From positions 1-64,000 of the forward strand of contig MIAY01000019.1 of NCBI GenBank assembly GCA_001829315.1: DNA of 64,000 nucleotides, written 5' to 3'. The notes below the pieces were generated by a model. That model searched no databases and was not told the origin of the DNA. It saw only the letters and a list, made by a program, of their open reading frames with translations. The position numbers were made by a program, and so were the translations under genes. The stretch is from Spirochaetes bacterium GWE1_32_154. Its GTDB lineage: Bacteria > Spirochaetota > GWE2-31-10. The stretch's first letter is position 1. Each line of letters starts with the position of its first letter. Positions 3,419 through 19,313 of the stretch are shown piece after piece.

Positions 3419-3811
3419 ATGAAAAGAGTTATTACTTATGGTACATATGATATTCTACATTATGGACATATAAATTTGCTACGAAGGGCAAAAGAATTAG
3501 GAGATTATCTTTTAGTTGCATTATCAAGTGATGAATTTAATAAAGGAAAACATAAAACATCTTTATTAAATTATGAAAATAGAAAAGCAGTTGTTGAATC
3601 TATCAGATATGTTGATATGGTTATCCCTGAAGAAAATTGGGAACAAAAAATTGAAGATATAAAAAAATACAATATTGATATTTTTGTAATGGGCGATGAT
3701 TGGGAAGGTAAATTTGATTTTCTTAAAGAATATTGTGAAGTAATTTATCTTCCGCGAACACCTGATATTTCTACAACTCAAATAAAAAATGATATTAATG
3801 AAAAAAAATAA
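3419..3811 (+). CDS. tagD: Glycerol-3-phosphate cytidylyltransferase
   Basis: The enzyme makes CDP-glycerol from CTP and sn-glycerol 3-phosphate. At 130 residues it has the normal TagD/GCT length. It shows the nucleotidyltransferase HxGH motif as HYGH at residues 14-17, the RYVDMVIPE segment, VMGDDWEGKFDFL, and the second signature RTPDISTTQIK near the C-terminus. All match TagD closely from memory. A very strong GGGGGAGGG ribosome site lies directly before the ATG. Its position two genes after a glycerophosphotransferase gene argues that the glycan carries glycerol phosphate. Reading it as another cytidylyltransferase is unlikely given the DDWEGK and ISTT signatures. Confidence 0.95.
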   Translation: MKRVITYGTYDILHYGHINLLRRAKELGDYLLVALSSDEFNKGKHKTSLLNYENRKAVVESIRYVDMVIPEENWEQKIEDIKKYNIDIFVMGDDWEGKFDFLKEYCEVIYLPRTPDISTTQIKNDINEKK

Positions 3812-3820
3812 GGATATAGT

Positions 3821-6028
3821 TTGAAGAGAATATTATTATTTGTACATTACAATCCGGTTGATGAACTAGCCGATCATGTTTTATATACTCTTGAAAAATT
3901 AAAACCATATTTTATAAAGGTAGTTTTTATTTCAAATAGTTTGTTAAATAAAAAACAAAAAGAAAAGCTTAATGTCCACACTGACATAATTATAGAAAGA
4001 GAAAATAAAGGTTATGATTTTGGAGCATGGAAAGATGGTATTTCTAACATAGGTTGGGGAAATTTATTTGATTACGATTCGATGATACTAATGAATGATA
4101 CATGTTTTGGCCCCCTTTATGATATGAAGGATTCATTTGATAAAATGGAGAAAACGGGTATAGATTTCTGGGGGATAAATAACCGTGAACCAACTTCTAC
4201 CGGAATGCCGGGTAGTAATGGGCCAATAAAAGAGCACATTAGAAGCTTCTTTTTTGCATTTTCAAATAAAGTAATCATTTCAAAAGTATTTGAACAATTC
4301 TGGAATGATGTAATTTATGCAGAAGATCTTAATTTTGTTATACAAAATTACGAAACTAAATTAACAGATATTCTTGTTAAGAGTGGTTTTAATTATAATG
4401 TTTTATTTGATTACGTTGTGGATGTAATTAATAATATTAATAAATTTCCAGATTTATTAATAAAGAAAGGCATTCCTTTTGTTAAAATTAAATGTTTTAC
4501 GGAATATTTTTTAGATCCAAAGTATTTATTAGAATTAATTAGAATTTATACTAAATATCCTATTGAAATTATTAACGATTTCTTCACAAAAACATTTAAT
4601 CCAAATATATCATTGCGATTATTGAATAAAATTTTACCTTTAAATAATTTAGATGATTTATCCGGAGTGAAAATTGCTTTTCATATACATGTTTTTTACA
4701 TTGATGTTTTAGAAGTTTTTTTATGTAAAATAATTGAACTAAATTATAATTATAAACTTTTTTTTACTGTAGTAAATGAAAATATGGCTGAACAGATTTA
4801 TGAAATTATAAAAAAATATCAAATATCAAATAGATTGGGTGAAGTGTTTATACTTACTAACAAAGGTCGAGATATTTATCCATGGCTATATATATCTTCT
4901 CATTTATCTAAATATGATGTTGTAGGACATTTTCATACTAAAAAATCACCACATCACTTTACGTTCAAAGGAGAGTCGTGGTTAATTGAATTTATAGATA
5001 CATTTATAACAACATCTTTTTCAATATTAAAAAATTTTAAAACGAATAAAAATATTGGCATAATTATTCCTGATGTGCCGACTTATTTCAAATTTATATC
5101 TACCTATGATGTTATGAATCAAACCAATAAAAATATTTGTAATGAGTTATGGAATAAAATGAAAACTCACTCAAAAATGAAGTCAATTGATTTTAATACA
5201 ATAAATACTCCAATTATGTCGTATGGCAACATGTTTTGGTATAGACCAGATGCCTTAAAACCGTTGTTTGATCTGAATCTGAATGAAAATGATTTTCAGC
5301 CAGAACCGTTACCGGCGGATGGAACATTGGCACATGGTATAGAAAGATTACCGGTTTATATTGCATGGAGCCAAGGGTATGACTATCGTATAGCATTAAA
5401 TTCAAATCGATTAACTAGTGGATTTGATTATAGAAATAATGGTTTATCTCCGGAGGTTATTTATAAAAACAATGAGCTTGAAAAACAAATAATTAGTTAT
5501 AATCACATTTTAAGTAAATACGAAGGAAGTTTTATATTTAAAATATACAGTGTAAAAAATAAAAGTTTTATTTTCGGTAAAAAAGTATACTCAAATTTTA
5601 AATCTGTAATTAAATCATTTTTTGACAGAAATAATTACAAAGTTCTATATAATTATAATTTATCTGAAAAAAGAACAGATATTATATTTAATAATCAGAT
5701 TGCGGACATTTTGTTTAGTAAAAATGGACTTACGTTTAATTCAATTGGCAGAGATCCAAATTTTGTTTTTAAAGATTTTAATTTACCAGAAGGTAAGAAA
5801 ATTATTAAAATTATTTTATGTATAGAAAAGGAAAGCATTTTACAGGTTTTTTATAAAATTTCAAAAAGACAAAAGTTTACTGAGGTTAATAGCATAAAAA
5901 AAACTTTAAAAAAAGGAAGTAATGTGATATATTTAACTTTACCAAATTTTGAAATAAATGGGTTAAGAATTGATCCTGGTATGATAGAGGGGAAGTATGA
6001 AATTAAAAGAATATTTATCGTTAAGTAA
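3821..6028 (+). CDS. RgpF-like rhamnan synthesis protein with C-terminal beta domain
   Basis: This 735-residue protein starts at TTG 3821, preceded by AGGA. The body matches the RgpF family (PF05045), whose members assemble rhamnose-containing glycans. Visible blocks are KRILLFVHYNP at the start, ENKGYDFGAWKDG near residue 63, MNDTCFGPLYDM near 92, and later TNKGRDIYPWLY followed by VGHFHTKKSPHH near 370-380. From about residue 610 there is a separate beta-rich domain (SIGRDPNF ... VFYKISKRQKFTEVNS ... LRIDPG) resembling one in the YfhO protein that follows and in the first gene of the window. The end overlaps the next gene by 32 nt. It is a likely glycosyltransferase of the cluster, with specificity unknown. 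Confidence 0.85.
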   Translation: MKRILLFVHYNPVDELADHVLYTLEKLKPYFIKVVFISNSLLNKKQKEKLNVHTDIIIERENKGYDFGAWKDGISNIGWGNLFDYDSMILMNDTCFGPLYDMKDSFDKMEKTGIDFWGINNREPTSTGMPGSNGPIKEHIRSFFFAFSNKVIISKVFEQFWNDVIYAEDLNFVIQNYETKLTDILVKSGFNYNVLFDYVVDVINNINKFPDLLIKKGIPFVKIKCFTEYFLDPKYLLELIRIYTKYPIEIINDFFTKTFNPNISLRLLNKILPLNNLDDLSGVKIAFHIHVFYIDVLEVFLCKIIELNYNYKLFFTVVNENMAEQIYEIIKKYQISNRLGEVFILTNKGRDIYPWLYISSHLSKYDVVGHFHTKKSPHHFTFKGESWLIEFIDTFITTSFSILKNFKTNKNIGIIIPDVPTYFKFISTYDVMNQTNKNICNELWNKMKTHSKMKSIDFNTINTPIMSYGNMFWYRPDALKPLFDLNLNENDFQPEPLPADGTLAHGIERLPVYIAWSQGYDYRIALNSNRLTSGFDYRNNGLSPEVIYKNNELEKQIISYNHILSKYEGSFIFKIYSVKNKSFIFGKKVYSNFKSVIKSFFDRNNYKVLYNYNLSEKRTDIIFNNQIADILFSKNGLTFNSIGRDPNFVFKDFNLPEGKKIIKIILCIEKESILQVFYKISKRQKFTEVNSIKKTLKKGSNVIYLTLPNFEINGLRIDPGMIEGKYEIKRIFIVK

Positions 6029-9000
6029 GAATAGTTTTAATTTGGTGAAAATTATTAAATTCTTCATTATTTTAATAATATCTATGTTTATTTCTTTTTC
6101 ATTTTTATTTTTATTACAAAGCAAAGGTATTTTTAATAACAATATTAAAACTTCAATTTTAACAGAAGTAGACACAAATTTTCAAATATTTTATGATACA
6201 GGAAAAGGTTTTAATGAAAAAGAATCAATTCGATATCGAATTCAAGGTTCTCAACATAAGCAAAGAATTAAACTATTTTTACCTAACAATAACATTCTAC
6301 GATTACGTGTTGATTTTATGGATGAATCGGGTGTTTTTTTTATAAATAAAATTGATTTTGAAATTAATGATAGGTATTATAAAATTAACTTAAATAAGTT
6401 AAATAATTATTTAAACAACAAATCTGTTGTTATAAATAACTTTATTTCATCTTATGATGTTTTAAATACTGGTGTTTTGTTTAAATCAACAGGAAAAGAT
6501 CCTTATTTAATAATAAAATTAAGTAATATTGAAAGTAAAATTCTTAGTAATAATAAATTAATAATTGGTCTATTATTGATTTTATTTGTTTTTATAATTT
6601 TTATTGTTCTTCTAAAATATAAAAACAATATTTTAGATTTTTTAAATCAAAAGTCTTTAACAGCTGATACTTTTATTGTTTTTTTATTTATTATAGTAAG
6701 TTCGTTTATATTTTTATTTTTATTTTTTGATTATATTTTTGGTGATAAATTATTTATATTTAGAGATATAGGCAGTGATACAATAAATAGTTATTATCCT
6801 TATTATTATAGAATGGTAAATCATTTTAAAGACTTTGCTTTTTATGATTTTTCTGTTGGTATTGGTGGAAGTGTATTTTTGTTTCTAGCAGAACCATTTT
6901 CAATAATCAATCTATTAATTGGTGCAGATAATATTGCTAATTCTTTAATTTATTCATATTGGTTAAAAATAATTTTATCTGGAACAATTATGTATTTTCT
7001 ATTATTATCATTAAATAATAATGACAGATACACATCTTTTTTATTTTCATTATTATATTCTTTTAGTGGATTCATAATGTTATGGGGACAACACTATTTT
7101 TTTTCTTCATGGATAGTTTATTTTACTTTGATGCTTTACTCTGTTGATTTGTACTTAAAAAGAAATAAGTATATTTTATTTCTTTTAGCCAGCTTTTTTT
7201 CATTATTTTACATATATATTTATATACCTATTTTAATTTTTACTTTTCTTTTTTTTCTATATAGATCATCAGACTTAAATATTCCAATTATAAAGAGATT
7301 TAAACTTTTATTAAATTTTTTTATTTTAACTTTAATTTCCTTTCTATTAGCACTATTTATTTTATTACCATTTTATCATATTTTGAGTAGTAGCCCTAGA
7401 ATTTCTTTATTTGAAATAAAAACTTATATTAAATCTTTGTTTTCATTATACAATTTTAAATATTATATAGTTGTTATTCTAAGGTTTTTTGGAAATTTTT
7501 CAACTGGAGGTATAAAAGATTTTTTTGGATTTATTAATTTATATGAATCACCACAGCTATATAGCGGACTAATATCATTGTTGTTATTTCCAGTTTATTT
7601 ATTTGGTTCAAATAGTTTTATGAAAAAGAATAAGGTAAAAAAATATGTATTTATATTTCTTTTATTATCCTTATTATTACCTTCACTTACAATAATTTAT
7701 AACGGTTTACAAACAACACAAACTAGATGGACATATGGTATAATTTTTTTTATTATATTATTTGCCTCTAAAGTTTTATCAAATAAAACTCTTTTAAAAG
7801 AAAATTTAATTATTATTAGAAATAATATATATATATATATATTATTTCTAATATCTGCTTATTTTTTGTTAAAAATATTTTATAATTTTGATTTTACTAA
7901 AAATATAACTATTTATCATAATGTGTTTTATATAATTTTATTGTTGATTGTATATTATTTAATTTTAAAAAATTTTCATATTCGTCTAAATAAAGTTATT
8001 CTTTTATTATTTATTATTTTTGAATTAATTTTTTTAAACAATAATTTGATTAATGAAAGAGTTGCAGTACAAAAAAACAATAATCCTTATTTTATGGATG
8101 GGACTGTTGAAGCTATAAACTATATTAAAAAAATTGATAATGATATGTTTTATAGAATTGATAAGAATTATCATACAGTTTTTTTAAATGATGCCTTATT
8201 ACAAGGTTATAATGGTATCAGTATTTATCATTCTCTAAATTCGCCCGGTTATATTACTTTCTTACAAAAAATGAATATAAGAGATGATAAAAGATTAAAT
8301 TATCTTCCCGTAGAACTAACAAAAAATAATTTCCAAACAATAATATCAAGATTACCACCTATACGAAATTTATTAACAGTAAAATATGTTTTATCAAAAA
8401 CAAATATTAATATTGAGTATTTAGATTTTATAGAAAATGTTAAAGGTGTTTATATTTATAAAAATAGAAATTATAAAACTTTTGGTTATTTATATAATGA
8501 ATTTATTTTAGAAGAAGATTTTGAAAAATTCAATGATCAATTAAAGGAAGGAATAATTGAAAATAATATTATTCTTTCTAATGTTATGAAAAACAAAATG
8601 AATATAAAATTATCTGATTATACTAAAGGAACAAAACTTAATGAAAACTTTTTACTATATTCGGAAAAAAATGATTTAACAAATTTAGAAAATATCATTG
8701 AAAATATTAATATTAATTATCGGGGTAATCAATTTAGTGAAACTGCTTTGCATTGGGCGGTATTGAATAATAATTTTTTAATGATTAAAAGTTTAATTGA
8801 TAATGGTGCAAAAACATATTTAACAAATAAATATGGTATATCTCCTATGTCACTTACTAAAGATAAAAAAATAATAGATCTTCTATCTGAAAGTACAGTA
8901 AAATTAGAAAACTTCAATATAAAAACGTTTACAAATGATAAAATCATTGGAGATGTAAAAGTTAATAAAGATTCTATCCTATTTTTTTCTATTCCATACG

Positions 9001-9227
9001 ATAAAGGTTGGAATTTAAAAATCAATGGAAAAAAAGCAAGTTACTACAATGTTAATTATGGGTTTATTGGCATTCCATTAAAAGAAGGTAGCTATTCTAT
9101 TAAACTATATTACATTCCTAAATATTTTATTATAAGTTTTATAATATCAATTTTAACTTTTATATTAATAGTAATTTATATATTTATTATAAAAAACAAA
9201 ATTATAAAGGATTTATTTGTCATATGA
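5997..9227 (+). CDS. YfhO-family multispanning membrane protein with an ankyrin-like insert
   Basis: This 1076-residue protein has one N-terminal membrane segment (about 20-42), a beta-rich extracytoplasmic domain (about 55-180) and many hydrophobic segments between about 180 and 690. An extracytoplasmic C-terminal region carries the SIPYDKGWNLKINGK block near 998, and a final membrane helix lies near 1040-1065. The topology and the GW(N/K) block match the YfhO family (PF09586), thought to be GT-C-like enzymes or glycan-modifying proteins (family knowledge). Residues about 881-966 look like two ankyrin repeats: a weak SEKNDLTNLENIIENI unit, then a clear unit with ETALHWAVLNNN, SLIDNGAKTYLTNKYG and ISPM. 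This is not usual for YfhO. It overlaps both neighbours, and its ATG follows GAGGGGAAG. Confidence 0.8.
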   Translation: MKLKEYLSLSKNSFNLVKIIKFFIILIISMFISFSFLFLLQSKGIFNNNIKTSILTEVDTNFQIFYDTGKGFNEKESIRYRIQGSQHKQRIKLFLPNNNILRLRVDFMDESGVFFINKIDFEINDRYYKINLNKLNNYLNNKSVVINNFISSYDVLNTGVLFKSTGKDPYLIIKLSNIESKILSNNKLIIGLLLILFVFIIFIVLLKYKNNILDFLNQKSLTADTFIVFLFIIVSSFIFLFLFFDYIFGDKLFIFRDIGSDTINSYYPYYYRMVNHFKDFAFYDFSVGIGGSVFLFLAEPFSIINLLIGADNIANSLIYSYWLKIILSGTIMYFLLLSLNNNDRYTSFLFSLLYSFSGFIMLWGQHYFFSSWIVYFTLMLYSVDLYLKRNKYILFLLASFFSLFYIYIYIPILIFTFLFFLYRSSDLNIPIIKRFKLLLNFFILTLISFLLALFILLPFYHILSSSPRISLFEIKTYIKSLFSLYNFKYYIVVILRFFGNFSTGGIKDFFGFINLYESPQLYSGLISLLLFPVYLFGSNSFMKKNKVKKYVFIFLLLSLLLPSLTIIYNGLQTTQTRWTYGIIFFIILFASKVLSNKTLLKENLIIIRNNIYIYILFLISAYFLLKIFYNFDFTKNITIYHNVFYIILLLIVYYLILKNFHIRLNKVILLLFIIFELIFLNNNLINERVAVQKNNNPYFMDGTVEAINYIKKIDNDMFYRIDKNYHTVFLNDALLQGYNGISIYHSLNSPGYITFLQKMNIRDDKRLNYLPVELTKNNFQTIISRLPPIRNLLTVKYVLSKTNINIEYLDFIENVKGVYIYKNRNYKTFGYLYNEFILEEDFEKFNDQLKEGIIENNIILSNVMKNKMNIKLSDYTKGTKLNENFLLYSEKNDLTNLENIIENININYRGNQFSETALHWAVLNNNFLMIKSLIDNGAKTYLTNKYGISPMSLTKDKKIIDLLSESTVKLENFNIKTFTNDKIIGDVKVNKDSILFFSIPYDKGWNLKINGKKASYYNVNYGFIGIPLKEGSYSIKLYYIPKYFIISFIISILTFILIVIYIFIIKNKIIKDLFVI

Positions 9228-10405
9228 AAAATATTATTTTATCTTTACTTATAATAAACAAAATATTTTTATTTTCAAATAACTATAAATCAGTTGTAAT
9301 ATCTGGGGACTCCATGTCTACAGGTTTCGCATTTTTAAATACAATTAAATATTCTAAAGAATCAAAAAATTTACCCGCTGGTATTTTAGCATGGCCTAAT
9401 ATGATTCGTGATGCTATAATTAGAAATGATATTAATTTCAAGCATGCTACAGAATTGGCTATTTCGACAAAGTATAATACAACAAAAATTCAAAAATCAT
9501 GGAAGAATTCACAATTTCCTTACGCTTTACCATTTAATAATAAAACAGCTACAATTTATGAAATAAAAAATAATGACGAACAAGTCTCATTCAATTATTC
9601 AACGAAAAGTATGTCTGATACAATTGTTTTATATTTTTCAAAAACACCTTTTCCTGTGGGATGTAAATTTGATATTTTTGTAAATGGAAAAATATTAAAA
9701 GAAGAAATTGATACTTCATCTTTAAATAATGATTATTTTGGATTTCAAGTGAAAAAGGTTATATTAAAAGTATATAATAACAATACTTTTAATATATTAT
9801 TAACTAATTTTAAATCTTCAAGTCAGAAAGATTCTGCAACTTTAGGTTTCTTTTTTTTGGGAATAGGTACTAATGATACTGATATCTATTTAACAGGCAG
9901 GACATCTTCAAATACAAGATTTTATGTTAACAATAATTATAAAGAATTGTATAATAGAGTGATAAATTTAAAACCAGATCTTTTAATTTTTGCTATTGGG
10001 TCAGCTGATATGGCTTTTAATGCTGCGCAAGTAGAAAATACTCCTAGGGGTAATGTTCCTCTAACTGAGTTTAAATCCAATATGATTAGTATAATAAAAG
10101 AAGTAAAAAAAAAAAATGATAATATTAAAATTGTAATTATAGGTCCTTCTGATTTTCAGGGACTTGATCAGCAACATATTAAGGATTATAATGTATCTTT
10201 ATCTGAATTATCCAAAGAATTTCACTTAGATTTTCTTGATGTTTTAAGTATTTTAAAAGAGCATAATGAAATTGGAGAGGTTCTATTAGTTGATTATGTT
10301 CACTTTAATAATAAAGGGCATACTATTATTGCTAATAAAATTATAAATCTTCTTTATGAAGAAGTATTATATAATGATTTAATTGATTCTGAAATATATT
10401 TTTAA
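9224..10405 (+). CDS. Secreted SGNH/GDSL-type hydrolase
   Basis: This 393-residue protein has a short hydrophobic export segment (residues 4-16) and an SGNH esterase fold. The nucleophile is probably Ser30 in SGDSMSTG, and the catalytic Asp/His pair is D357 and H360 in DYVHFNNKGH. The block III motif reads GSAD at 259-262 instead of G-x-N-D, so the oxyanion-hole Asn is replaced by Ala261. Between about residues 60 and 230 it carries an inserted beta-rich region. The whole protein is a paralogue of the SGNH part of the lipoprotein at 17052-19313, which keeps GAND. It overlaps the upstream gene by 4 nt (ATGA). A role in removing or adding O-acyl groups on the glycan is inference; the altered block III may weaken catalysis. 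Confidence 0.8.
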   Translation: MKNIILSLLIINKIFLFSNNYKSVVISGDSMSTGFAFLNTIKYSKESKNLPAGILAWPNMIRDAIIRNDINFKHATELAISTKYNTTKIQKSWKNSQFPYALPFNNKTATIYEIKNNDEQVSFNYSTKSMSDTIVLYFSKTPFPVGCKFDIFVNGKILKEEIDTSSLNNDYFGFQVKKVILKVYNNNTFNILLTNFKSSSQKDSATLGFFFLGIGTNDTDIYLTGRTSSNTRFYVNNNYKELYNRVINLKPDLLIFAIGSADMAFNAAQVENTPRGNVPLTEFKSNMISIIKEVKKKNDNIKIVIIGPSDFQGLDQQHIKDYNVSLSELSKEFHLDFLDVLSILKEHNEIGEVLLVDYVHFNNKGHTIIANKIINLLYEEVLYNDLIDSEIYF

Positions 10406-10423
10406 ATTATGGGAGATTACAAA

Positions 10424-10810
10424 ATGGCTGATAAAATAAAATTATTAGACTTTCCTGAAAAAGGAGATGAAAATGGTCTTTTAGTAGCGATACAAAATGG
10501 TGATAATATACCTTTTAATATTAAAAGATTATTCTATATTTATGGAACTAAACAAAATATTATAAGAGGGAATCATGCTAACAAAATATCACAATTCGTA
10601 CTTATATCTATTAGTGGTAGCTGTAAAGTAAAAACTTTTGATGGTCTTAATGAGCAATTTTTTTCTCTCAATAAACCATCTATTGGTTTATATTTAGACA
10701 AGATGGTATGGAAAGAAATGTATGATTTTTCAAAAGATTGTGTTTTACTTGTGTTAACTGATACTGAATATGATCCAAGTGAGTATATTTATGATAAAAA
10801 TAATTTATAA
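10424..10810 (+). CDS. fdtA: WxcM-like sugar nucleotide 3,4-ketoisomerase (FdtA/QdtA type)
   Basis: This 128-residue single-domain cupin resembles dTDP-4-keto-6-deoxyglucose 3,4-ketoisomerases (FdtA, QdtA, TylM3; PF05523). Visible features are FNIKRLFYIYGTK, RGNHANKISQFVL (the FdtA-type RGxHAHK motif with Asn replacing one His), SGSCKVKTFDG and a GLYLDKMVWKEM segment. The product, a 3-keto-6-deoxyhexose, is the substrate of the aminotransferase encoded next. The start is placed at ATG 10424, which follows GGGAG at 10411, rather than at an in-frame ATG 15 bases earlier. FdtA and QdtA differ in the C4 configuration of the product, which I cannot decide from sequence. The symbol marks family only. 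Confidence 0.85.
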   Translation: MADKIKLLDFPEKGDENGLLVAIQNGDNIPFNIKRLFYIYGTKQNIIRGNHANKISQFVLISISGSCKVKTFDGLNEQFFSLNKPSIGLYLDKMVWKEMYDFSKDCVLLVLTDTEYDPSEYIYDKNNL

Positions 10811-10822
10811 AAGGACAAAAAT

Positions 10823-11932
10823 ATGATTAAATTTTTAGATTTAAAGACTATTAATCAGTTAGATAGAGAAAAATATATACAAAAATTTGCAGACGTGTTA
10901 GATTCGGGTTGGTATATACTTGGAAATGAAGTAAAAAAATTTGAAACAAAATTTTCAGAGTATTGCGGATCAAAATATTGTGTTGGTGTGGCAAGTGGTT
11001 TAGATGCTTTAATACTGATATTAAGAGGTTATAAAGAATTAGGTAAATTATCTGATGGAGATGAGATTTTAGTACCAGCTAATACATATATAGCAACAAT
11101 AATAGCAATTACTGAAAATAAATTAAATCCAGTTTTAATAGAACCTGATTTAAATAACTTTTTGATAGATATTAAATTAATAGAAAAGAATATTACTGAT
11201 AAAACAAAAGCTATTATGCCTGTTCATTTATATGGTCAAGCTGTTGATATGCATAAAATTAAAAAAATTGCCGATAAACACAATTTATTAGTAATTGATG
11301 ATTGCGCACAGGCACATGGAGCTATTGTAAATGGAAATAAAGTTGGTGGTTTATTAAGTGATGCAAGTGGTTTTAGTTTTTATCCTGGTAAAAACTTAGG
11401 GGCTATTGGTGGTGATGCTGGTGCTATCACAACGAATGATTTTAAACTTTATGAAGTGATTAGTTCATTAAGAAATTATGGGTCTAAAGTAAAATATTAC
11501 AATGATTATATTGGTTTAAATTCAAGATTAGATGAAATTCATGCAGCAATATTAAATTTAAAATTACCTAATTTAGATTCTGATAATGCTAAAAGAAGAA
11601 AAATCGCTGATTATTATAGAAAAAATATAACAAATAAAAATATAATATTACCCAATACAGAGAATGAAGAGTCTCATGTTTGGCACCTTTTCGTTATAAG
11701 AACAGATAATAGAGAGAAATTACAAAATTATTTCATAGATAATAATATTGAAACCTTAATACATTACCCTGTACCTCCTCATAAGCAAATAGCGTATAAA
11801 AAATTAAATTCTTTATCATTACCTATTACAGAGAAAATACATAATGAAGTTTTAAGTCTTCCAATTAGTCCCGTAATGTCTATGGATGATGTAAAACAAG
11901 TTGTTACCGTTTTAAATAACTATGGAGGATAG
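10823..11932 (+). CDS. fdtB: DegT/DnrJ/EryC1-type PLP-dependent 3-keto sugar aminotransferase (FdtB/QdtB type)
   Basis: This 369-residue protein is a sugar aminotransferase of PLP fold type I. The PLP lysine is K190 in [18 protein letters not shown] provides the cofactor Asp, and [13 protein letters not shown] is the conserved helix that follows. [11 protein letters not shown] and PANTYIATI are further family motifs. Because an FdtA/QdtA-like ketoisomerase gene lies 12 bases upstream, the likely reaction is transamination of dTDP-3-keto-6-deoxyhexose to a 3-amino-3,6-dideoxyhexose (Fuc3N or Qui3N). The amine would then be acylated. The acyltransferase gene is not adjacent; the candidate is at 16163-16963. 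A GGAGG within the last codons serves the next gene. Confidence 0.88.
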
Positions 11933-11933
11933 A

Positions 11934-12875
11934 ATGGGAAAAAGAAAAAAAATATCCATAATTATTCCTGTTTATTATAATGAGCTTAATATACCAATTA
12001 CAGTTCCTAGATTAAAGGAACTGGATAAAATAATTCATAACTTTGATTTTGAATTTATATTTGTTGATGATGGTTCAGGTGATAAATCTTATGAATTATT
12101 AATCAATGAAAGAAATAAAGATAAGAGAATTAAAGTTATCAAATTGAGTAAAAATTTTGGTTCAATGTCAGCAGTTCAGGCTGGTTTAAAATTTGCAACA
12201 GGTAATTGTGTTGGTATTATATCAGCTGATTTACAAGATCCTCCTGAGTTATTTAAAGATATGATTGCTATGTGGGAAAAGGGAAATAAAGTTGTTATGG
12301 CGACAAGAACTGATAGAAAAGAAAGTTTAGGTCAAAAATTATTTTCTAATACCTATTATTTTTTTATGAATAAATTTGCTATTAAAGGTTATCCTAAAGG
12401 TGGTTTTGATTTTGTTTTGATTGACAGTCAAGTTGTAAAAGAATTAAATCACATATCCGAAAAAAATACAAATATCATGAGTTTAATCTTTTGGCTTGGA
12501 CATGACAGAGCAACTATTCCATATGTTAGACAAAAAAGAGAAATAGGGAAGTCAAAGTGGACTTTATCAAAAAAGATAAAACTTTTTGTTGATTCATTTG
12601 TTGCTTTTTCATATGTTCCTATTAGATTTATGTCTTTTATTGGGTTTCTTACGGCTTTTGCTAGTTTTATTTATGGCATATTAATTATTTTGGGTACTCT
12701 AATGGGATATATGAGTGTAAAGGGATGGGCTACATTAATTACTTTTTTTACATTTTTTATGGGATTAATTATGTTAATGCTAGGAATAATTGGAGAGTAT
12801 CTTTGGAGGATTTTAGATGAAACAAGAAAAAGACCATCTTATGTGATCGATGAGGCTGAAATTGATGAAGATTAA
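11934..12875 (+). CDS. Membrane glycosyltransferase of the GtrB/DPM1-like GT2 group
   Basis: This 313-residue protein has a GT-A domain with IIIPVYYNE, VDDGSGDKS, ADLQDPPE (the metal- and sugar-phosphate-binding motif) and RQKREIGKSKWTLSKK. Two C-terminal membrane helices follow (about 233-260 and 267-295). This layout belongs to enzymes that load a sugar onto polyprenyl phosphate (GtrB, DPM1, ArnC group). The start is placed at ATG 11934, after GGAGGA at 11924-11929, rather than at the in-frame ATG 11922. The next gene encodes a GtrA-like flippase and overlaps it, so the pair probably makes and flips an undecaprenyl-phosphate-linked sugar used to decorate the glycan outside the cytoplasm. 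The sugar is unknown. Confidence 0.88.
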   Translation: MGKRKKISIIIPVYYNELNIPITVPRLKELDKIIHNFDFEFIFVDDGSGDKSYELLINERNKDKRIKVIKLSKNFGSMSAVQAGLKFATGNCVGIISADLQDPPELFKDMIAMWEKGNKVVMATRTDRKESLGQKLFSNTYYFFMNKFAIKGYPKGGFDFVLIDSQVVKELNHISEKNTNIMSLIFWLGHDRATIPYVRQKREIGKSKWTLSKKIKLFVDSFVAFSYVPIRFMSFIGFLTAFASFIYGILIILGTLMGYMSVKGWATLITFFTFFMGLIMLMLGIIGEYLWRILDETRKRPSYVIDEAEIDED

Positions 12876-13254
12876 TATATCTATACAACAATTTATGAAG
12901 TTTGTTTTAGCAGGTATTCTTAATACATCTTTTACGTATGGTATTTATTATCTGCTGATTTTTATAATTGATTATAGATTGTCATATATTATTTCATTTC
13001 TATCAGGAATTATTTTATCTTTTATTTTGCATGCAAAAATGGTTTTTAAAGTAAAAATCGATTTATATAAAATTATAATGTACCCATTAGTTTATTTAAC
13101 ACAGTTTTCAATAAGTTTTATTTTTATTACTTTGTTTGTTGAAAATGGAATAGTAAATAAAAAGATAGCACCACTTTTGGTTTTACTAATTACCATACCT
13201 ATAACTTTTGTTATATCGAAATTAATCTTAACAAATAGGAATAAAAATGCTTAA
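12865..13254 (+). CDS. GtrA-family membrane protein (putative polyprenyl-phosphate sugar flippase)
   Basis: This 129-residue protein has four membrane segments: about 8-28, 32-54, 65-90 and 100-122. It contains the FMKFVLAGILNT motif that marks the start of GtrA proteins (PF04138), and its length is typical. It overlaps the GtrB-like gene by 11 nt. I prefer ATG 12865, with GAGG about 9 bases upstream, to ATG 12850. GtrA proteins are thought to move the lipid-linked sugar made by GtrB to the outer face of the membrane; the evidence for flipping is family-level only. Confidence 0.82.
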   Translation: MKINISIQQFMKFVLAGILNTSFTYGIYYLLIFIIDYRLSYIISFLSGIILSFILHAKMVFKVKIDLYKIIMYPLVYLTQFSISFIFITLFVENGIVNKKIAPLLVLLITIPITFVISKLILTNRNKNA

Positions 13255-14284
13255 AGAAAGAGAACAGTGGATTGATACAGCAAAAGGTATTGGTATATTA
13301 CTTGTAGTAGTTGGTCATGTATTTATTGAAGGAAATATGTTTAGTGTAAGAAGATGGATTTATTCCTTTCATATGCCATTGTTTTTTTTTATATCTGGTT
13401 ATTTATATCGTATTAGTAAAAATGTTGATTTTAAAATATATATTAAAAATAAATTTTCATTACTTATTTATCCCTATTTTATATTTGGATTTTTGTCATA
13501 TATTATTTATTTAATAGGATACATTATCATAGTGAAATATAAAGGCATCACTAATATTCCTAATTTTCAAAGTGGTATTATCATTCCATTTGTTGGATTA
13601 TTTTTTTCTAAAATTAATAATGGTTATTTAAATGTTAATATGCCTTTATGGTTTTTACCATGTTTGTTTGTTGTTCAATCTTTTTTTTATATTTTAAGAA
13701 AAGTGATTAAATCAGAATATTTATTGTTTTTTGTTATTTTATCACTTTCCGTATTAAGTTATTATTTTTTTAATGAAAAAATATTTTTACCGTGGAGTAT
13801 TGATACTGCAATGGTTGCTTTATTATTTTATTACAGCGGTTACTTAATGTTTCAATACAAAAAATATATTATAGATACTAAATTTTCGAAATTTATTTTA
13901 ATTATTTCATTAATTCTCTCAATGATTTTCTCTTTGTTAAATATTACTGTAATAATGGGAGAAAATATTTATGGTAATTTTTTTATTTTTTTATTATCCG
14001 CCATATCCGGTATAATTTTTATTATATTATTTTCTAAACTTAATAAAAGTAAAGTTATGATAGAAGTTGGTAGAAATTCTTTACTTATTTTAGTCACTCA
14101 TGGTGTTTTTATTTATGTATTAAAAGCTTTATTTATTTTCTTTTTTAATATTAATTTAGAGTTTATTAATAGTAACTTTTTTATTGGTATTATCATTTTG
14201 ATGATAACCTTGATTCTACTATACCCTACAGTAAAAATAATAAATAAGTACTTATTTATTTTAATAAATATTAAACAGAAATAA
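13247..14284 (+). CDS. Acyltransferase 3 family membrane protein (probable glycan O-acyltransferase)
   Basis: This 345-residue protein has about ten membrane segments. It opens with REQWIDTAKGIGILLVVVGH, the family signature with Asp and the catalytic-type His. SFHMPLFFFISGYLY follows, and there is a late TLILLYP segment. Members of PF01757 (OafA, WecH) O-acetylate surface sugars in or across the inner membrane. It overlaps the GtrA-like gene by 8 nt, so it is probably co-translated with the GtrB/GtrA pair. After it there is a 38-base gap, with GGAAGGAG before fabH. Confidence 0.85.
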   Translation: MLKEREQWIDTAKGIGILLVVVGHVFIEGNMFSVRRWIYSFHMPLFFFISGYLYRISKNVDFKIYIKNKFSLLIYPYFIFGFLSYIIYLIGYIIIVKYKGITNIPNFQSGIIIPFVGLFFSKINNGYLNVNMPLWFLPCLFVVQSFFYILRKVIKSEYLLFFVILSLSVLSYYFFNEKIFLPWSIDTAMVALLFYYSGYLMFQYKKYIIDTKFSKFILIISLILSMIFSLLNITVIMGENIYGNFFIFLLSAISGIIFIILFSKLNKSKVMIEVGRNSLLILVTHGVFIYVLKALFIFFFNINLEFINSNFFIGIIILMITLILLYPTVKIINKYLFILINIKQK

Positions 14285-14322
14285 TATAAATAATTTTAAG
14301 TTTATGGAAGGAGTCATTTAAT

Positions 14323-15306
14323 ATGAGAAATATTGGAATTATAGGTACTGGTTTTTATGTACCTGCAAAAACGTTAACAAATAAAGATATTAGTAAATTT
14401 TTAGATACAGACGATGAATGGATTTATAATAAGGTAGGCATAAAAGAAAGAAGGATAGCATCCGACCATGAGGCTACATCTGACTTGGCTATATATGCTG
14501 CTCAAAATGCTTTATTTAATGCCGGTTTAAATCCACTTGATGTAGATTTAATAGTTTTAGCTACTTCAAGCCCTGACATGATTCAGCCATCAACAGCTGC
14601 AATAGTTCAAGGTAAAATTGGAGCTAGAAATGCAGCTGCATTTGATATATCAGCAGTATGTGCAGGTTCTGTTTATGCAATTACCGTAGCTGAAAATATG
14701 ATGCGCGCAAATCCTAAATATAAAAATGTATTAGTCATTGGTTCTGAAACTTATTCAAGAATATTAGACTGGACCGATAGAAACACAGCTGTTTTTTTTG
14801 GTGATGGGGCAGGTGCTTTAGTATTAAGTGATGTAAGTGAACAGTATGGAATTAAAAATACATTTATAATGAATGATGGTAGAGGTGCTAGTGTTATTCA
14901 ATTTCAAGGGGGGGGGTCACGTTATCCTGCTACAAAAGATACATTAGAAAGAAAATTACACAGGTTTGAAATGCAAGGAAAACTTGTTTGGGATTTTGCT
15001 ACAAAAATATTTCCTGAAGCCATTCGGAAAGTTACTGAAGAAATTAATAAAAAAATTGAAGATATTGATTTAATAATTTCTCATCAGGCAAATATAAATA
15101 TTATTAAGAAAGGTCTTAACGAATTGAATTTAGATATGTCAAAAACATTTACGAATATTGAAAAATATGCTAACACCTCCGGTGCATCTATATTTATTGC
15201 CCTAGCTGAGGCAAATGAAAAAGGATTGCTAAAAAAAGGAAGTAATGTTTGTTTAGTTGCTTTTGGTGGTGGTTTATCATATGGTGCAATTTATTTAATT
15301 TGGTAA
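14323..15306 (+). CDS. fabH: 3-oxoacyl-ACP synthase III
   Basis: This 327-residue KAS III condenses a short acyl-CoA starter with malonyl-ACP to give a 3-oxoacyl-ACP. The catalytic triad is visible: Cys113 in AVCAGSVYA, His254 in SHQANINI, and Asn284 in YANTSGAS. The GDGAGALV and FGGGLSYGA blocks match FabH. A strong GGAAGGAG precedes the ATG. The gene is not in a fatty-acid operon but within the glycan cluster, followed by a 3-hydroxyacyl dehydrogenase and a hexapeptide acyltransferase. I infer that it makes an acetoacetyl-type group for an amino-sugar acyl chain. A housekeeping role as the only FabH of the cell is possible. Confidence 0.9.
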   Translation: MRNIGIIGTGFYVPAKTLTNKDISKFLDTDDEWIYNKVGIKERRIASDHEATSDLAIYAAQNALFNAGLNPLDVDLIVLATSSPDMIQPSTAAIVQGKIGARNAAAFDISAVCAGSVYAITVAENMMRANPKYKNVLVIGSETYSRILDWTDRNTAVFFGDGAGALVLSDVSEQYGIKNTFIMNDGRGASVIQFQGGGSRYPATKDTLERKLHRFEMQGKLVWDFATKIFPEAIRKVTEEINKKIEDIDLIISHQANINIIKKGLNELNLDMSKTFTNIEKYANTSGASIFIALAEANEKGLLKKGSNVCLVAFGGGLSYGAIYLIW

Positions 15307-15321
15307 TAATTTGGAGTAATA

Positions 15322-16152
15322 ATGAAAATATCCATTATAGGTACTGGAAAAATGGCATTAGGAATTGTACAAGTATTCTTAAATGAAAGAAATAATATAA
15401 CAGTAGTTGGTAGAAGTAAGGAATCTTGTTCTAAATTTAAATCTACATTATTTGATACATTAAAATTTAAGGCAAAATTATCAGATGAAAAAATAATACA
15501 AATAATGTCAAATTGTATTGTTTCACATGATTTGAATATCATTAATGGCAGTGATATTGTTATCGAGGCTATTATTGAAGATTTTTCTGAGAAAATTAAA
15601 ATATTAAAAAATATTGAAATGTTAGTAGATATTAAATCAATTATAGCAACAAATACATCATCGATTTCAATAAATAAATTATCAGAAAAAATTGAATATA
15701 AAAAAAGATTTTTAGGTATACATTTCTTCAATCCAGTTCCATTAATGGGGTTGATTGAAATTGTTAAAAGTGATTTTACGGATGACACTACTTTAGAAAC
15801 AGTTAAAAATCTTATTACTGATATTAATAAGATAGGTATTATTACTAAAGATACTCCTGGTTTTATTGTAAATAGAATATTAATTCCTATGATTAATGAT
15901 GCTATTATATTATTAGAAACGAAAGTAGCAGATGCTGAAAATATTGATTTAGCGATGAAATTAGGTGCTAATTTCCCCATTGGTCCATTAGCTTTATCTG
16001 ATTTTATCGGGAATGATATAGTACTGAATATATTAGATAATATGTTTGAACAATCTAATAATGATAGATTTAAATCAAGCAATCTTTTAAAAAATATGGT
16101 TAATTCAGGATTATTAGGTAAAAAAGTAAAAAAAGGTTTTTATAACTATTAG
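15322..16152 (+). CDS. 3-hydroxyacyl-CoA (or -ACP) dehydrogenase
   Basis: This 276-residue NAD(P)-dependent enzyme has an N-terminal Rossmann fold with GTGKMALGI (residues 7-15) and a C-terminal helical domain. ATNTSSISI, IHFFNPVPLM with catalytic His134, DTPGFIVNR and GPLALSDFIG are the expected HBD/PaaH-type motifs, and length is normal. It would reduce a 3-oxoacyl thioester to the 3-hydroxyacyl form, or the reverse. It lies 15 bases after fabH and 10 bases before the acyltransferase gene, without a thiolase or enoyl hydratase nearby. This argues for a biosynthetic role on the FabH product. Whether the carrier is CoA or ACP cannot be seen. Confidence 0.88.
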   Translation: MKISIIGTGKMALGIVQVFLNERNNITVVGRSKESCSKFKSTLFDTLKFKAKLSDEKIIQIMSNCIVSHDLNIINGSDIVIEAIIEDFSEKIKILKNIEMLVDIKSIIATNTSSISINKLSEKIEYKKRFLGIHFFNPVPLMGLIEIVKSDFTDDTTLETVKNLITDINKIGIITKDTPGFIVNRILIPMINDAIILLETKVADAENIDLAMKLGANFPIGPLALSDFIGNDIVLNILDNMFEQSNNDRFKSSNLLKNMVNSGLLGKKVKKGFYNY

Positions 16153-16162
16153 GTGGGGAAAT

Positions 16163-16963
16163 ATGAATTATTACAAAGGTAAAAATGTTAATATTGGAAA
16201 TGATGTAAAAATTGGTTTTGGTGTTATTATAGAAGATGACGTAACAATTGAAAATAATGTAATAATTGATTCTTATACGAAAATTTGTAATAATGTTTAT
16301 ATAAAAAAAAATACTTATATAGGATCAAATTGTATTATTGGTGAAATAGGCATTAATTATCATACTAACCACCAGAGGAAAAAGACTATTATCGGGGAAA
16401 AAAGCTTAATTAGATCTTATACGGTTATATATTCTGAAAATATACTAGGTGACTTTTTTGAGACAGGTCATCGAGTGACTATTAGGGAACGTAGTAATAT
16501 CGCTTGTAATGTCAGAATTGGTACCTTATGTGATATACAAGGGGATTGTGAAATAGGTGAATATACCAGATTGCATAGTAATGTACATATTGGTAAACTT
16601 TCTAACATAGGAAAATATGTATGGATATTTCCCTATGTAATTTTAACAAATGATCCAACACCTCCATCTGACAATTTAAAAGGTGTAACAGTTGAGGATT
16701 ATTCAGTAATTGCTACAGGATCGACTATCTTGCCTGGCATTACAATTGCAACTAACGCTTTTGTTGGCGCAAATACATTAGTTAGTAAAAATGTTTTAAA
16801 GGGAACTGTTGTTGTTGGTAATCCTCAAGTAAATATCGGATCAATAGAAAAATTGAATAAAAATGGTATAAATACTTATCCATGGATGTATTCTTTTGAT
16901 AAAGGAATGCCATGGCAAGGAATTGAATTTGATATGTGGATGAAAAATAATAAAAATAATTAA
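16163..16963 (+). CDS. Left-handed beta-helix (hexapeptide repeat) acyltransferase
   Basis: This 266-residue protein is built from hexapeptide repeats ([LIV]-G-x4): VNIGNDVKIGFGVIIEDDVTI near the start, then about ten coils up to residue 225. A break holds ETGHRVTIRE, where the His may be the catalytic base. A short C-terminal segment rich in Trp (YPWMYSFDKGMPW) follows. The fold is that of sugar N- and O-acyltransferases such as LpxA, LpxD, FdtC and QdtC. As the last gene of the fabH set it is the candidate for transferring a 3-hydroxyacyl group to the amine made by the FdtB-like enzyme. FdtC and QdtC proper use acetyl-CoA, so the acyl chain is inferred from the neighbours. Confidence 0.85.
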   Translation: MNYYKGKNVNIGNDVKIGFGVIIEDDVTIENNVIIDSYTKICNNVYIKKNTYIGSNCIIGEIGINYHTNHQRKKTIIGEKSLIRSYTVIYSENILGDFFETGHRVTIRERSNIACNVRIGTLCDIQGDCEIGEYTRLHSNVHIGKLSNIGKYVWIFPYVILTNDPTPPSDNLKGVTVEDYSVIATGSTILPGITIATNAFVGANTLVSKNVLKGTVVVGNPQVNIGSIEKLNKNGINTYPWMYSFDKGMPWQGIEFDMWMKNNKNN

Positions 16964-17051: not shown

Positions 17052-19313
17052 ATGAAAAATAATATATTTATTATGTTTGTTTTTTTTCTAATTATAAGTT
17101 GTCAACCTATTACGGTTGTAGAAATACAAGAAAAATCAAAATCGGCATATTTAGAAACAATAACATTAAATTCAAAAATGGTTTCTAATTTTAGTACAGA
17201 TGTTTTTAACTACACATTATATCGACATGAATCAGAAGGAACATCGATTACAATTCAAGCAACTTCATCAGATTCAAAATCAACAATTTCCGGGCTTGTA
17301 AATAATGTTGAATTACAATTAAACTCTCTTAATAAATTCACAATCGGGGTTTTCTCAGAAGACACGACAATGGCTAATTTTTATACAATAAATATTTATT
17401 TATATGATGATAATTGCGTATTATTAAAAGATATTATTATTGATGGGAAATCTATTGATAATTTTAATTCTGAATTATATACTTATAATGTAAAATCATA
17501 TTCTAATAGTGTAAATTTATCTTTTTTACCGATGAATTCAAATGCTACTATTAATCCTGAGTCAATATCGTTTTCTTTTTCAGATAATAGTACTGATACG
17601 CTTAATCAAAGTGTTATTTTGAGTGCAAGTACCTATACTAAAAAATATACTGTTGTTGTGCAAAAATTATCTTCATCATCAGGTTCAGGTATGTATAATG
17701 GTATTGATTTATCGTATGAATTACAAAAAGATGGTTTTTCAACCGTAATAGCAGGTGACAGTATTTCAGTTGGTTACAGTTTTGCCGGAGTTAATATAAA
17801 TAATTCCTCAGATTCGTATCCTGGTTTAATGAGTTGGTCACATATGATTCGTGATGCAATACACAGAAATGACCCTGATTTTATTCATGCAGACCAATTA
17901 CAAATTGGTGCAAAATACTCAACAACGAGCTTCACTAAATCATGGGCAAATAACGCTGCTATTTCAAATTCATATTGGATGCCATTTAATAACAGAAATC
18001 TTACAATTTCAAATATTACAAAATCTGATGAAGAAATTGTTATACGAATACCCAATAATAATCTTTATCAAAATAAAGCATATCTTTGGTTTTCTACAAC
18101 CCCCTATAATGTTGGTTGTTCTATGGATATTCATTTAAATGGGACAATATTAATGTCAGATTTTAATCTATATACAATTGATGCAAATTATTATAACGGC
18201 TTTGAAACAAAAATTGTCGAAATTAAAAATCTAATCCCCGGTACAAATAAAATCTCATTAACAAATTTTAAGAATACTGCCGGGGGTTCAGCAATGGGAT
18301 TTTTTCTAAATGGTGTTAGCAGTAAATATTCTCCCGTTTATTTAAATGGAAGAAGTAGTGCAACAAGTGATTATTATGTTGATTTTGATGTGCCTAATGG
18401 TGCATTTCAAAAAAGAATTGCAGATAAAAAACCTGATTTGTTTATTTATTTAATTGGTGCTAATGACAGTGTTAATACAAGTGGTATTGGAAATAATGGA
18501 TTAAATGAACTCGGTGCAGTAAAGGGAATCGTTCCGTTAGCCCAATATGAACTAAACATAAGAAATCTGGTTACTAAAGTTCGTGAAGTTAATCCTTATT
18601 CTCAAATTTTACTTATCAGTCCTCCTGTTTGGAGTAATGCAGACGGGGATATTGCAGATTTTGAATTGAATAAAATAATAATAAAAGAATATGTAGAACA
18701 AATGAAAAGAGTTGCTATTGAGACAAATTGTATGTTTATTGATATGATAGAGTTATTCAATAATATTCCGTTTACGCAACAAGCAACAGGGCCTCAAGGT
18801 CGTGATTGGAGAGAAGATTATGTACATCTTTCTAAATATGGCAACACACTTCTTGCAAGAACTATAGCGGATATGCTTATGCCACAAGGACTTTATAATA
18901 AAGAAATGGTTGATTCAGAACGATTATACAATGAAAAGAATAATTTCTTTATACCGAATAATGGTTGGATCATTGTTAAATATAACAATACAAACGGTTT
19001 CTTTGATACATTAACTAAATTAGGTACAAGTAACGATGTCTTTGATTATTCAAAAAATTATATTAAATCAATAAATAGAGTTTCAAAATCTTCTATTATG
19101 AATATAAATGTTTTTAAAACAGAAAATATTGGATTACCACATTTAAAAGTTGAACAATTTGGATCTAATAATGTTGAGTTTTATACAAGACCAGAATCGT
19201 ACTGGGACACATTCCAGAAATTTTGGATATTAAAAAACAATGTCAGTACTAATTATTTATTAACAGATACTGATTTTGATACTCAAAATATGCAATTTTT
19301 AATTAGTTGGTAA
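17052..19313 (+). CDS. Lipoprotein with two cadherin-like domains and an SGNH hydrolase domain
   Basis: This 753-residue protein has a lipoprotein signal with Cys17 (LIISC). Residues about 30-110 and 112-208 are two cadherin-like beta-sandwich units (PF12733 type: FSTDVFNYTL; FNSELYTYNV). The SGNH domain spans about 220-620, with nucleophile Ser237 in AGDSISVG, block III GAND at 469-472, and catalytic D589/H592 in DYVHLSKYG. About 130 further residues at the C-terminus are unrecognised. The SGNH part aligns with the protein at 9224-10405 (shared GDS block, MIRDAIHRND, KYSTTSFTKSWANN). Unlike that one it keeps all catalytic blocks. It is probably a surface-anchored deacylase acting on glycan. 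Confidence 0.85.
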   Translation: MKNNIFIMFVFFLIISCQPITVVEIQEKSKSAYLETITLNSKMVSNFSTDVFNYTLYRHESEGTSITIQATSSDSKSTISGLVNNVELQLNSLNKFTIGVFSEDTTMANFYTINIYLYDDNCVLLKDIIIDGKSIDNFNSELYTYNVKSYSNSVNLSFLPMNSNATINPESISFSFSDNSTDTLNQSVILSASTYTKKYTVVVQKLSSSSGSGMYNGIDLSYELQKDGFSTVIAGDSISVGYSFAGVNINNSSDSYPGLMSWSHMIRDAIHRNDPDFIHADQLQIGAKYSTTSFTKSWANNAAISNSYWMPFNNRNLTISNITKSDEEIVIRIPNNNLYQNKAYLWFSTTPYNVGCSMDIHLNGTILMSDFNLYTIDANYYNGFETKIVEIKNLIPGTNKISLTNFKNTAGGSAMGFFLNGVSSKYSPVYLNGRSSATSDYYVDFDVPNGAFQKRIADKKPDLFIYLIGANDSVNTSGIGNNGLNELGAVKGIVPLAQYELNIRNLVTKVREVNPYSQILLISPPVWSNADGDIADFELNKIIIKEYVEQMKRVAIETNCMFIDMIELFNNIPFTQQATGPQGRDWREDYVHLSKYGNTLLARTIADMLMPQGLYNKEMVDSERLYNEKNNFFIPNNGWIIVKYNNTNGFFDTLTKLGTSNDVFDYSKNYIKSINRVSKSSIMNINVFKTENIGLPHLKVEQFGSNNVEFYTRPESYWDTFQKFWILKNNVSTNYLLTDTDFDTQNMQFLISW

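Follow-up and report, generated by a model that had tools for sequence, protein, structure and literature searches.

Why should genes for building a short acyl chain lie inside an operon for an amino sugar? N-acyl groups of amino sugars shape surface antigens, yet a genome sequence seldom tells which group is present, given the close resemblance of acetyl- to hydroxyacyltransferases. The question is raised by a stretch of DNA, hereafter the window, that spans nucleotides 1 to 64,000 of contig C19 in the genome of Spirochaetes bacterium GWE1_32_154 (4.03 Mb in 43 contigs). An earlier reading of this stretch, made without database searches (the sequence-only reading), had named genes for a ketoisomerase, an aminotransferase, a FabH ketosynthase, a 3-hydroxyacyl dehydrogenase (here identified as a 3-hydroxyacyl-coenzyme A (CoA) dehydrogenase, HCDH) and a hexapeptide acyltransferase, and had proposed that the cluster makes its own 3-hydroxyacyl group and attaches it to the sugar amine. 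Pfam domain matches place all five genes, intact and on the + strand, within 10409-16963. Because the genes of this interval are co-directional and the gaps between them range from -26 to +38 bp, they form one probable operon. The seven kb said to separate the sugar genes from the acyl genes was an error: fabH starts 2.4 kb past the end of the aminotransferase gene and 3.9 kb past the start of fdtA, and between aminotransferase and fabH lie genes for a polyprenyl-phosphate-type family 2 glycosyltransferase (GT2), a GtrA protein and a membrane acyltransferase-3. Our analysis supports the proposed N-linked 3-hydroxyacyl group, on the strength of the paralogous FabH, the QdtC identity of the acyltransferase and the recurrence of HCDH beside QdtC. 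We consider it likely that the operon makes a deoxythymidine diphosphate (dTDP)-linked 3-(3-hydroxyacylamido)-3,6-dideoxyhexose, most probably dTDP-3-amino-3,6-dideoxygalactose (dTDP-Fuc3N) carrying an (S)-3-hydroxybutyryl group, from its own acyl supply via CoA.

The sugar part of this prediction rests on the first two genes. The FdtA-like sugar 3,4-ketoisomerase (10409-10810, +; PF05523, 1.8e-40) has Campylobacter jejuni WlaRA as its nearest solved relative (5tpv, 6.9e-35), ahead of FdtA (2pa7) and QdtA (4o9e). The FdtB-like DegT/DnrJ aminotransferase (10823-11932, +; PF01041, 6e-105) is nearest to PDB 5u1z (3.2e-135), which we take to be WlaRG of C. jejuni, ahead of QdtB (3frk, 7.6e-109). 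These FdtA-like and QdtB/WlaRG-like matches support the dTDP-3-amino-3,6-dideoxyhexose of the sequence-only reading. Since WlaRA is called TDP-fucose-3,4-ketoisomerase in the PDB, Fuc3N is our first guess for the sugar, with Qui3N, which differs in its configuration at C4, as the alternative. In the ketoisomerase, Asn replaces the second His of the canonical FdtA HAH motif (RGNHANK), and WlaRA has the same replacement. The same genome encodes RmlA, RmlB, RmlC and RmlD on a separate contig, C22. NCBIfam gave no above-cut-off family for the ketoisomerase, the aminotransferase or the acyltransferase.

The hexapeptide acyltransferase, ACYLTRANSFERASE (16163-16963, +; PF00132), does lie next to the dehydrogenase gene, as had been read, and is more exactly a QdtC-family N-acyltransferase: its residues 10-262 match QdtC of T. 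thermosaccharolyticum (3fs8) at 1.3e-75, with 51% identity over 253 columns, and the next best match is at 5.7e-12. An identity as LpxA or LpxD, which would have spoken against the proposal, was rejected, their matches being far weaker, and the homology likewise places the enzyme with QdtC rather than with serine acetyltransferase. When about 85,000 species genomes were scanned with the acyltransferase, 56 related loci emerged; an FdtA or aminotransferase gene is present in 45 of these, and in the window both genes share the operon of the enzyme. The equivalents of QdtC His134, Asn159 and Asp160 are kept as H138, N163 and D164, whereas Glu141 is replaced by Lys145 and His123 by Gly127; position 141 is Gln in most relatives. 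Four of these positions, His134, Glu141, Asn159 and Asp160, presumably bind the hexose in QdtC. An AlphaFold model of the acyltransferase (8 sequences; predicted local distance difference test score, pLDDT, 75) had QdtC as its best PDB matches, with a template-modelling (TM) score of only 0.3; because the two proteins are about 50% identical, we judged the global shape of the model wrong and set it aside.

The acyl-supply genes lie immediately upstream of the acyltransferase gene. The ketosynthase is a protein like β-ketoacyl-acyl carrier protein synthase III (KAS III; 14323-15306, +; PF08541/PF08545); in an alignment to E. coli FabH, residues C112, H244 and N274 of the E. coli enzyme fall on its Cys113, His254 and Asn284, the triad that had been reported intact. 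Another FabH, 47% identical, is encoded on contig C1 of the same genome; the window FabH is therefore a paralogue of the housekeeping KAS III, and we rejected the view of it as the sole housekeeping enzyme, which would have told against a role in the glycan. Its gene has a G+C content of 32%, compared with ~25% in neighbouring operon genes. The HCDH (15322-16152, +) contains both HCDH domains (PF02737, 5.9e-42; PF00725, 1.5e-29) and the catalytic NTSS, HFFNP and VNR motifs, and alignment confirms the catalytic histidine named earlier, that of HFFNP, as residue 134. The protein is Hbd-like, of an (S)-specific family, and nearest to 3-hydroxybutyryl-CoA dehydrogenases (Clostridium Hbd 4r1n, 1.1e-57). 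The genome has only one other HCDH, a distant one (28%; G000:C29:26452-27246, L106:6432-7310), beside an amylase-family gene.

Co-occurrence of the acyl and sugar genes in other genomes, proposed as a check in the sequence-only reading, was found: an HCDH gene is present at three of the 56 QdtC loci (L018, L024 and L042), each time less than 3 kb upstream of QdtC and on the same strand. All three HCDH genes in 904 kb of QdtC-flanking DNA from other genomes sit beside QdtC (crude p about 6e-4). The Spirochaetaceae locus L018 has the order HCDH-QdtC-FdtA-aminotransferase, with HCDH directly upstream of a QdtC that is sister to the window QdtC in our tree (SH-aLRT 90); the order is HCDH-thiolase-QdtC-rml in L024 (Lachnospiraceae) and HCDH-thiolase-QdtC-aminotransferase in L042 (Bacteroidales). 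The window and L018 dehydrogenases share 32% identity with one another but 37% and 36%, respectively, with clostridial Hbd, whereas the L024 and L042 enzymes are 62% identical. HCDH therefore probably came to lie beside QdtC on two or three occasions, and the L024-L042 similarity suggests that an HCDH-thiolase module was transferred between their phyla. The thiolase between HCDH and QdtC in these two phyla (L024:8661-9908; L042:8736-9983) is of an atypical, Thiolase_C_1 type. It occupies the slot of FabH, and either enzyme would yield an acetoacetyl thioester, acetoacetyl-CoA in the case of the thiolase. An acyl-CoA ligase and a FabG-like short-chain dehydrogenase/reductase, encoded directly upstream of QdtC in six clusters from Bacteroidota, Spirochaetota and one Vibrionaceae genome (L030, L043, L060, L061, L068 and L070), constitute another type of acyl-supply module, distinct from those with HCDH. 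With HCDH near QdtC at three loci and the ligase with its FabG-like partner at six, genes for a cluster's own acyl supply recur beside this acyltransferase; FabH plus HCDH is one form of such a supply, unique among the loci seen. Literature searches found no paper on a cluster of QdtC with HCDH.

The sequence-only reading had FabH make acetoacetyl-ACP, on acyl carrier protein (ACP). The ACP-docking Arg249 of E. coli FabH is Asn259 in the window protein and Asn also in its two closest kin among 393 Spirochaetota genomes, extra FabH copies 65% and 63% identical to it (L084 and L085, in genomes G314 and G381). The three proteins further have Asp or Asn (Asp in the window) at Lys214, Glu at Lys257 and Gln at Phe87. 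Arg249 is kept in 26 other aligned proteins, including E. coli FabH and the genome's own housekeeping FabH; it is also missing in two distant paralogues (35% and 31% identical) and in NphT7, with no further exceptions in the alignment. When the clade was sought in 399 Bacillota genomes, the best matches were all ordinary FabH proteins, mostly encoded beside plsX/fabD-type genes, and all 28 of the best had Arg249. NphT7 of Streptomyces sp. CL190, which is homologous to KAS III and keeps the triad, condenses acetyl-CoA with malonyl-CoA to acetoacetyl-CoA, and it has no KAS III activity, presumably for lack of the ACP-binding Arg (PMC5432608). The window FabH resembles it in having the triad without that Arg, and the ACP-docking site of a KAS III is lost at three positions (Arg249 to Asn, Lys214 to Asp, Lys257 to Glu). 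The triad numbering of the NphT7 sequence that we aligned agrees with PMC5432608; the two proteins differ in that they are about 40% identical, with no specific sister relation resolved, and NphT7 serves the mevalonate pathway. A mevalonate role was rejected for the window FabH because no 3-hydroxy-3-methylglutaryl-CoA (HMG-CoA) reductase was found in its own genome. G314 does have an HMG-CoA reductase, so the standalone KAS III paralogues L084 and L085, which likewise lack Arg249, may be acetoacetyl-CoA synthases for isoprenoids. The window protein also has GGGSR at 196-200, comparable to the AGGSR CoA motif of NphT7-type enzymes; we did not accept this as proof of CoA use, and the motif is uninformative because GGS(R/K) is common in ordinary FabH proteins.

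These residues bear on a rival route to the same product, in which FabH would form acetoacetyl-ACP, the dehydrogenase would act on the ACP thioester and the acyltransferase would draw on acyl-ACP, much as proposed for the viosamine island of P. syringae with its KAS III, FabG and ACP (PMC3927599). That the window FabH has an intact triad and scores above the KAS III subfamily cut-offs (PRK09352, 372.8 against 249 bits; TIGR00747, 340.6 against 292.1 bits) agrees with such a route. Its docking residues do not, the reductase is an HCDH, of a CoA-type family, rather than a FabG, no acp gene was found near the operon among the window genes read, and related QdtC clusters use a thiolase for the same step; we regard the ACP route as unlikely. 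The CoA route appears the better model, since the FabH lacks Arg249 as NphT7 does, HCDH and QdtC belong to families of CoA enzymes, and no ACP gene is near.

The length of the acyl chain could differ from our prediction if the KAS III paralogue were primed with another acyl-CoA, for example a propionyl or branched one, to give a longer or branched 3-hydroxyacyl group. Phe87, which limits the acyl pocket in E. coli, is Gln in the window FabH, as this idea would have it; the same Gln, however, is found in the NphT7 sequence that we aligned, and NphT7 uses acetyl-CoA, and the reductase is nearest to 3-hydroxybutyryl-CoA dehydrogenases, so that other primers seem improbable to us. Support for a 3-hydroxyacyl product is good, and 3-hydroxybutyryl is its likeliest identity.

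It is less probable still that the window QdtC is an ordinary acetyl-CoA-dependent enzyme and that FabH and HCDH feed something else, such as O-acylation of the polymer by the acyltransferase-3. Characterised QdtC does use acetyl-CoA, and the gene for the acyltransferase-3 membrane O-acyltransferase (13247-14284, +; PF01757, 6.5e-32) is directly upstream of fabH. Yet the HCDH-QdtC linkage is also seen in L018 and L042, with no acyltransferase-3 seen among their neighbours, and in L018 HCDH adjoins QdtC itself. That fatty-acid, butyrate or isoprenoid metabolism is the real task of FabH and HCDH and that only chance has put them in the operon, as the standalone FabH kin in G314 and G381 and the HMG-CoA reductase of G314 might hint, is very improbable given the housekeeping FabH elsewhere in the genome, the absence of HMG-CoA reductase from it, the spacing of 10-38 bp among QdtC and its neighbours and the independent HCDH-QdtC clusters.

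Several observations weigh against the CoA-based 3-hydroxybutyryl-Fuc3N assignment. The nearest kin of the window FabH (63-65%) lie away from sugar genes, FabH is found at none of the 56 other QdtC loci, and the loss of Arg249 is suggestive only as evidence for CoA. The sugar may be Qui3N instead of Fuc3N. Among the aligned QdtC loci, no sequence signature splits acetyl- from hydroxyacyl-specific proteins: Gly is present at position 123 in all ten acyl-gene clusters, yet also in most loci without acyl genes, and Gly127/Lys145 was dropped as a signature of the acyl pocket for the same lack of discrimination.

In the pathway that we propose, RmlA and RmlB, encoded elsewhere in the genome, would provide dTDP-4-keto-6-deoxyglucose, FdtA would shift the keto group to C3 and the WlaRG/QdtB-like aminotransferase would install the 3-amine. 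From acetyl-CoA and a malonyl thioester (probably malonyl-CoA, the substrate of NphT7), the KAS III paralogue would form acetoacetyl-CoA, which the Hbd-like dehydrogenase would reduce to (S)-3-hydroxybutyryl-CoA. The QdtC-family enzyme would then transfer the 3-hydroxybutyryl group from CoA to the 3-amine, giving acylated dTDP-Fuc3N.

Genes of the same operon suggest a fate for this sugar. The GT2 (11922-12875, +; PF00535, 1.1e-24), which is PgfS/ArnC-like (best NCBIfam match PgfS, 3.8e-58, below cut-off), is predicted to load the acylated sugar onto polyprenyl phosphate; the GtrA/GtcA-type membrane protein (12850-13254, +; PF04138, 5e-16), a predicted flippase, would bring the lipid-linked sugar across the membrane; and a YfhO-family membrane protein (5997-9227, +; PF09586, 6e-65), probably a glycosyltransferase of the GT-C type, would transfer it outside, with a polymer that contains glycerol phosphate as a possible acceptor. 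In L023, L025 and L037, too, genes for GT2 and GtrA share a stretch with those for QdtC, FdtA and aminotransferase. The operon further encodes a homologue of CDP-glycerol:poly(glycerophosphate) glycerophosphotransferase (TagB/F-like; 996-2198, +; PF04464, 4.1e-109), a cytidylyltransferase that is probably a TagD-like glycerol-3-phosphate cytidylyltransferase, a name drawn from family and context (3419-3811, +; PF01467, 1.1e-27), and an RgpF-like protein (3821-6028, +; PF05045, 6.6e-124). Three-component GT2/GtrA/YfhO systems glycosylate teichoic acids (PMC5836110, PMC7389260), and because the complete gene set of such systems is in this operon, the acylated sugar may decorate such a glycerol-phosphate polymer as a side group, attached on the outer side of the membrane.

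Every gene from 996 to 23502 reads in the + direction, and neighbours overlap or are separated by short gaps, of which the largest, 88 bp, is 3' of the acyltransferase gene. On either side of the amino-sugar and acyl genes is a gene for an SGNH/GDSL protein; the two proteins are paralogues with 32% identity, one encoded 3 bp before fdtA (a hydrolase; 9224-10405, +; PF13472, 3.8e-12) and the other after the 88-bp gap (17052-19313, +; PF13472, 3.6e-12); they are possibly secreted and might edit acyl groups of the polymer. Further cluster genes may be missing, because only a short piece of contig precedes the operon. The contig start falls within a repeat (90% match between 1-129 and 649-777), and the open reading frame at 79-999 contains a 174-nt tandem duplication (124-297/298-471, 98%); both are possibly an assembly-end effect.

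If our prediction is right, a spirochaete has a glycan with (S)-3-hydroxybutyramido-Fuc3N, a ketosynthase of a kind that usually works in fatty-acid synthesis has been turned into a CoA-dependent supplier for a glycan, and the gene neighbours of a QdtC-family enzyme reveal the acyl group that it uses. The fullest form of this idea may be right, though we lean slightly towards doubt: a CoA-only module in which an ACP-free, NphT7-like KAS III dedicated to the glycan and an Hbd-type dehydrogenase would supply (S)-3-hydroxybutyryl to a QdtC of changed acyl specificity for transfer to Fuc3N, with QdtC clusters in several phyla holding interchangeable modules (FabH plus HCDH, thiolase plus HCDH, HCDH alone, or ligase plus FabG) from which the acyl group could be predicted.

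Parts of the locus resemble known systems and depart from them. T. thermosaccharolyticum QdtC (PDB 3fs8/3fsb/3fsc) is a full-length homologue with the same substrate class, but it is an N-acetyltransferase with His123 and Glu141 where the window protein has Gly127 and Lys145. The C. jejuni WlaRA/WlaRG pair provides the closest solved relatives of the sugar enzymes; unlike that system, the window has no WlaRD-like formyltransferase among the genes read, and a QdtC homologue is predicted to acylate instead. CsbB-YfhO-GtcA systems share with the window the grouping of GT2, GtrA and YfhO in a single operon that also has genes for glycerol-phosphate transfer, but they act on Gram-positive teichoic acids with, for example, N-acetylglucosamine, whereas here the host is a spirochaete and the sugar would be an acylated 3-amino sugar.

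The product class has precedents as well. The statement that known Fdt/Qdt acyltransferases use acetyl-CoA does not hold universally, since FdhC (E. coli O103) and QdhC add (R)-3-hydroxybutanoyl to Fuc3N and Qui3N (PMC4869667); a further case of 3-hydroxybutyryl on Fuc3N or Qui3N, that of A. baumannii O2, is cited in PMC3628348. The (S)-3-hydroxybutanoyl group is known on 2-acetamido-4-amino-2,4,6-trideoxyglucose (QuiNAc4N; PMC9676051) and on bacillosamine (PMC3210612). FdhC shares the predicted product class of the window, 3-hydroxybutanoyl-Fuc3N, but with (R) configuration, and in the O103-type cluster the transferase between FdtA and FdtB is a GNAT protein as against a hexapeptide enzyme; the 10.7 kb read there contain no genes for acyl synthesis, and neither a KAS III nor an HCDH among them. 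In the stretches read of E. coli Fuc3N-type clusters, the transferases were GNAT or short acyltransferases, and no HCDH or FabH was seen. In the viosamine island (vioA, vioB, vioS, vioR, acp), deletion of vioR abolishes modified viosamine, and VioS (a KAS III) and VioR (a 3-oxoacyl reductase) are proposed to make a 3-hydroxybutyryl group that VioB moves to the dTDP-amino sugar (PMC3927599). The window resembles it as an amino-sugar cluster with its own KAS III and reductase, predicted to supply 3-hydroxybutyryl. The sugar of the island, however, is a 4-amino sugar, its reductase is FabG-type and forms the (R) isomer, and it has an ACP of its own, whereas the window has genes for a 3-amino sugar, an HCDH-type, (S)-forming reductase and a FabH without Arg249, with no acp gene nearby; its module would work like that of the island without being a member. 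Product type and logic are thus already known from the viosamine island and FdhC, and what is new in the window is the proposed CoA-based combination of a 3-amino sugar, a hexapeptide QdtC-type transferase, a CoA dehydrogenase of the (S) type and a KAS III that lacks ACP-docking residues.

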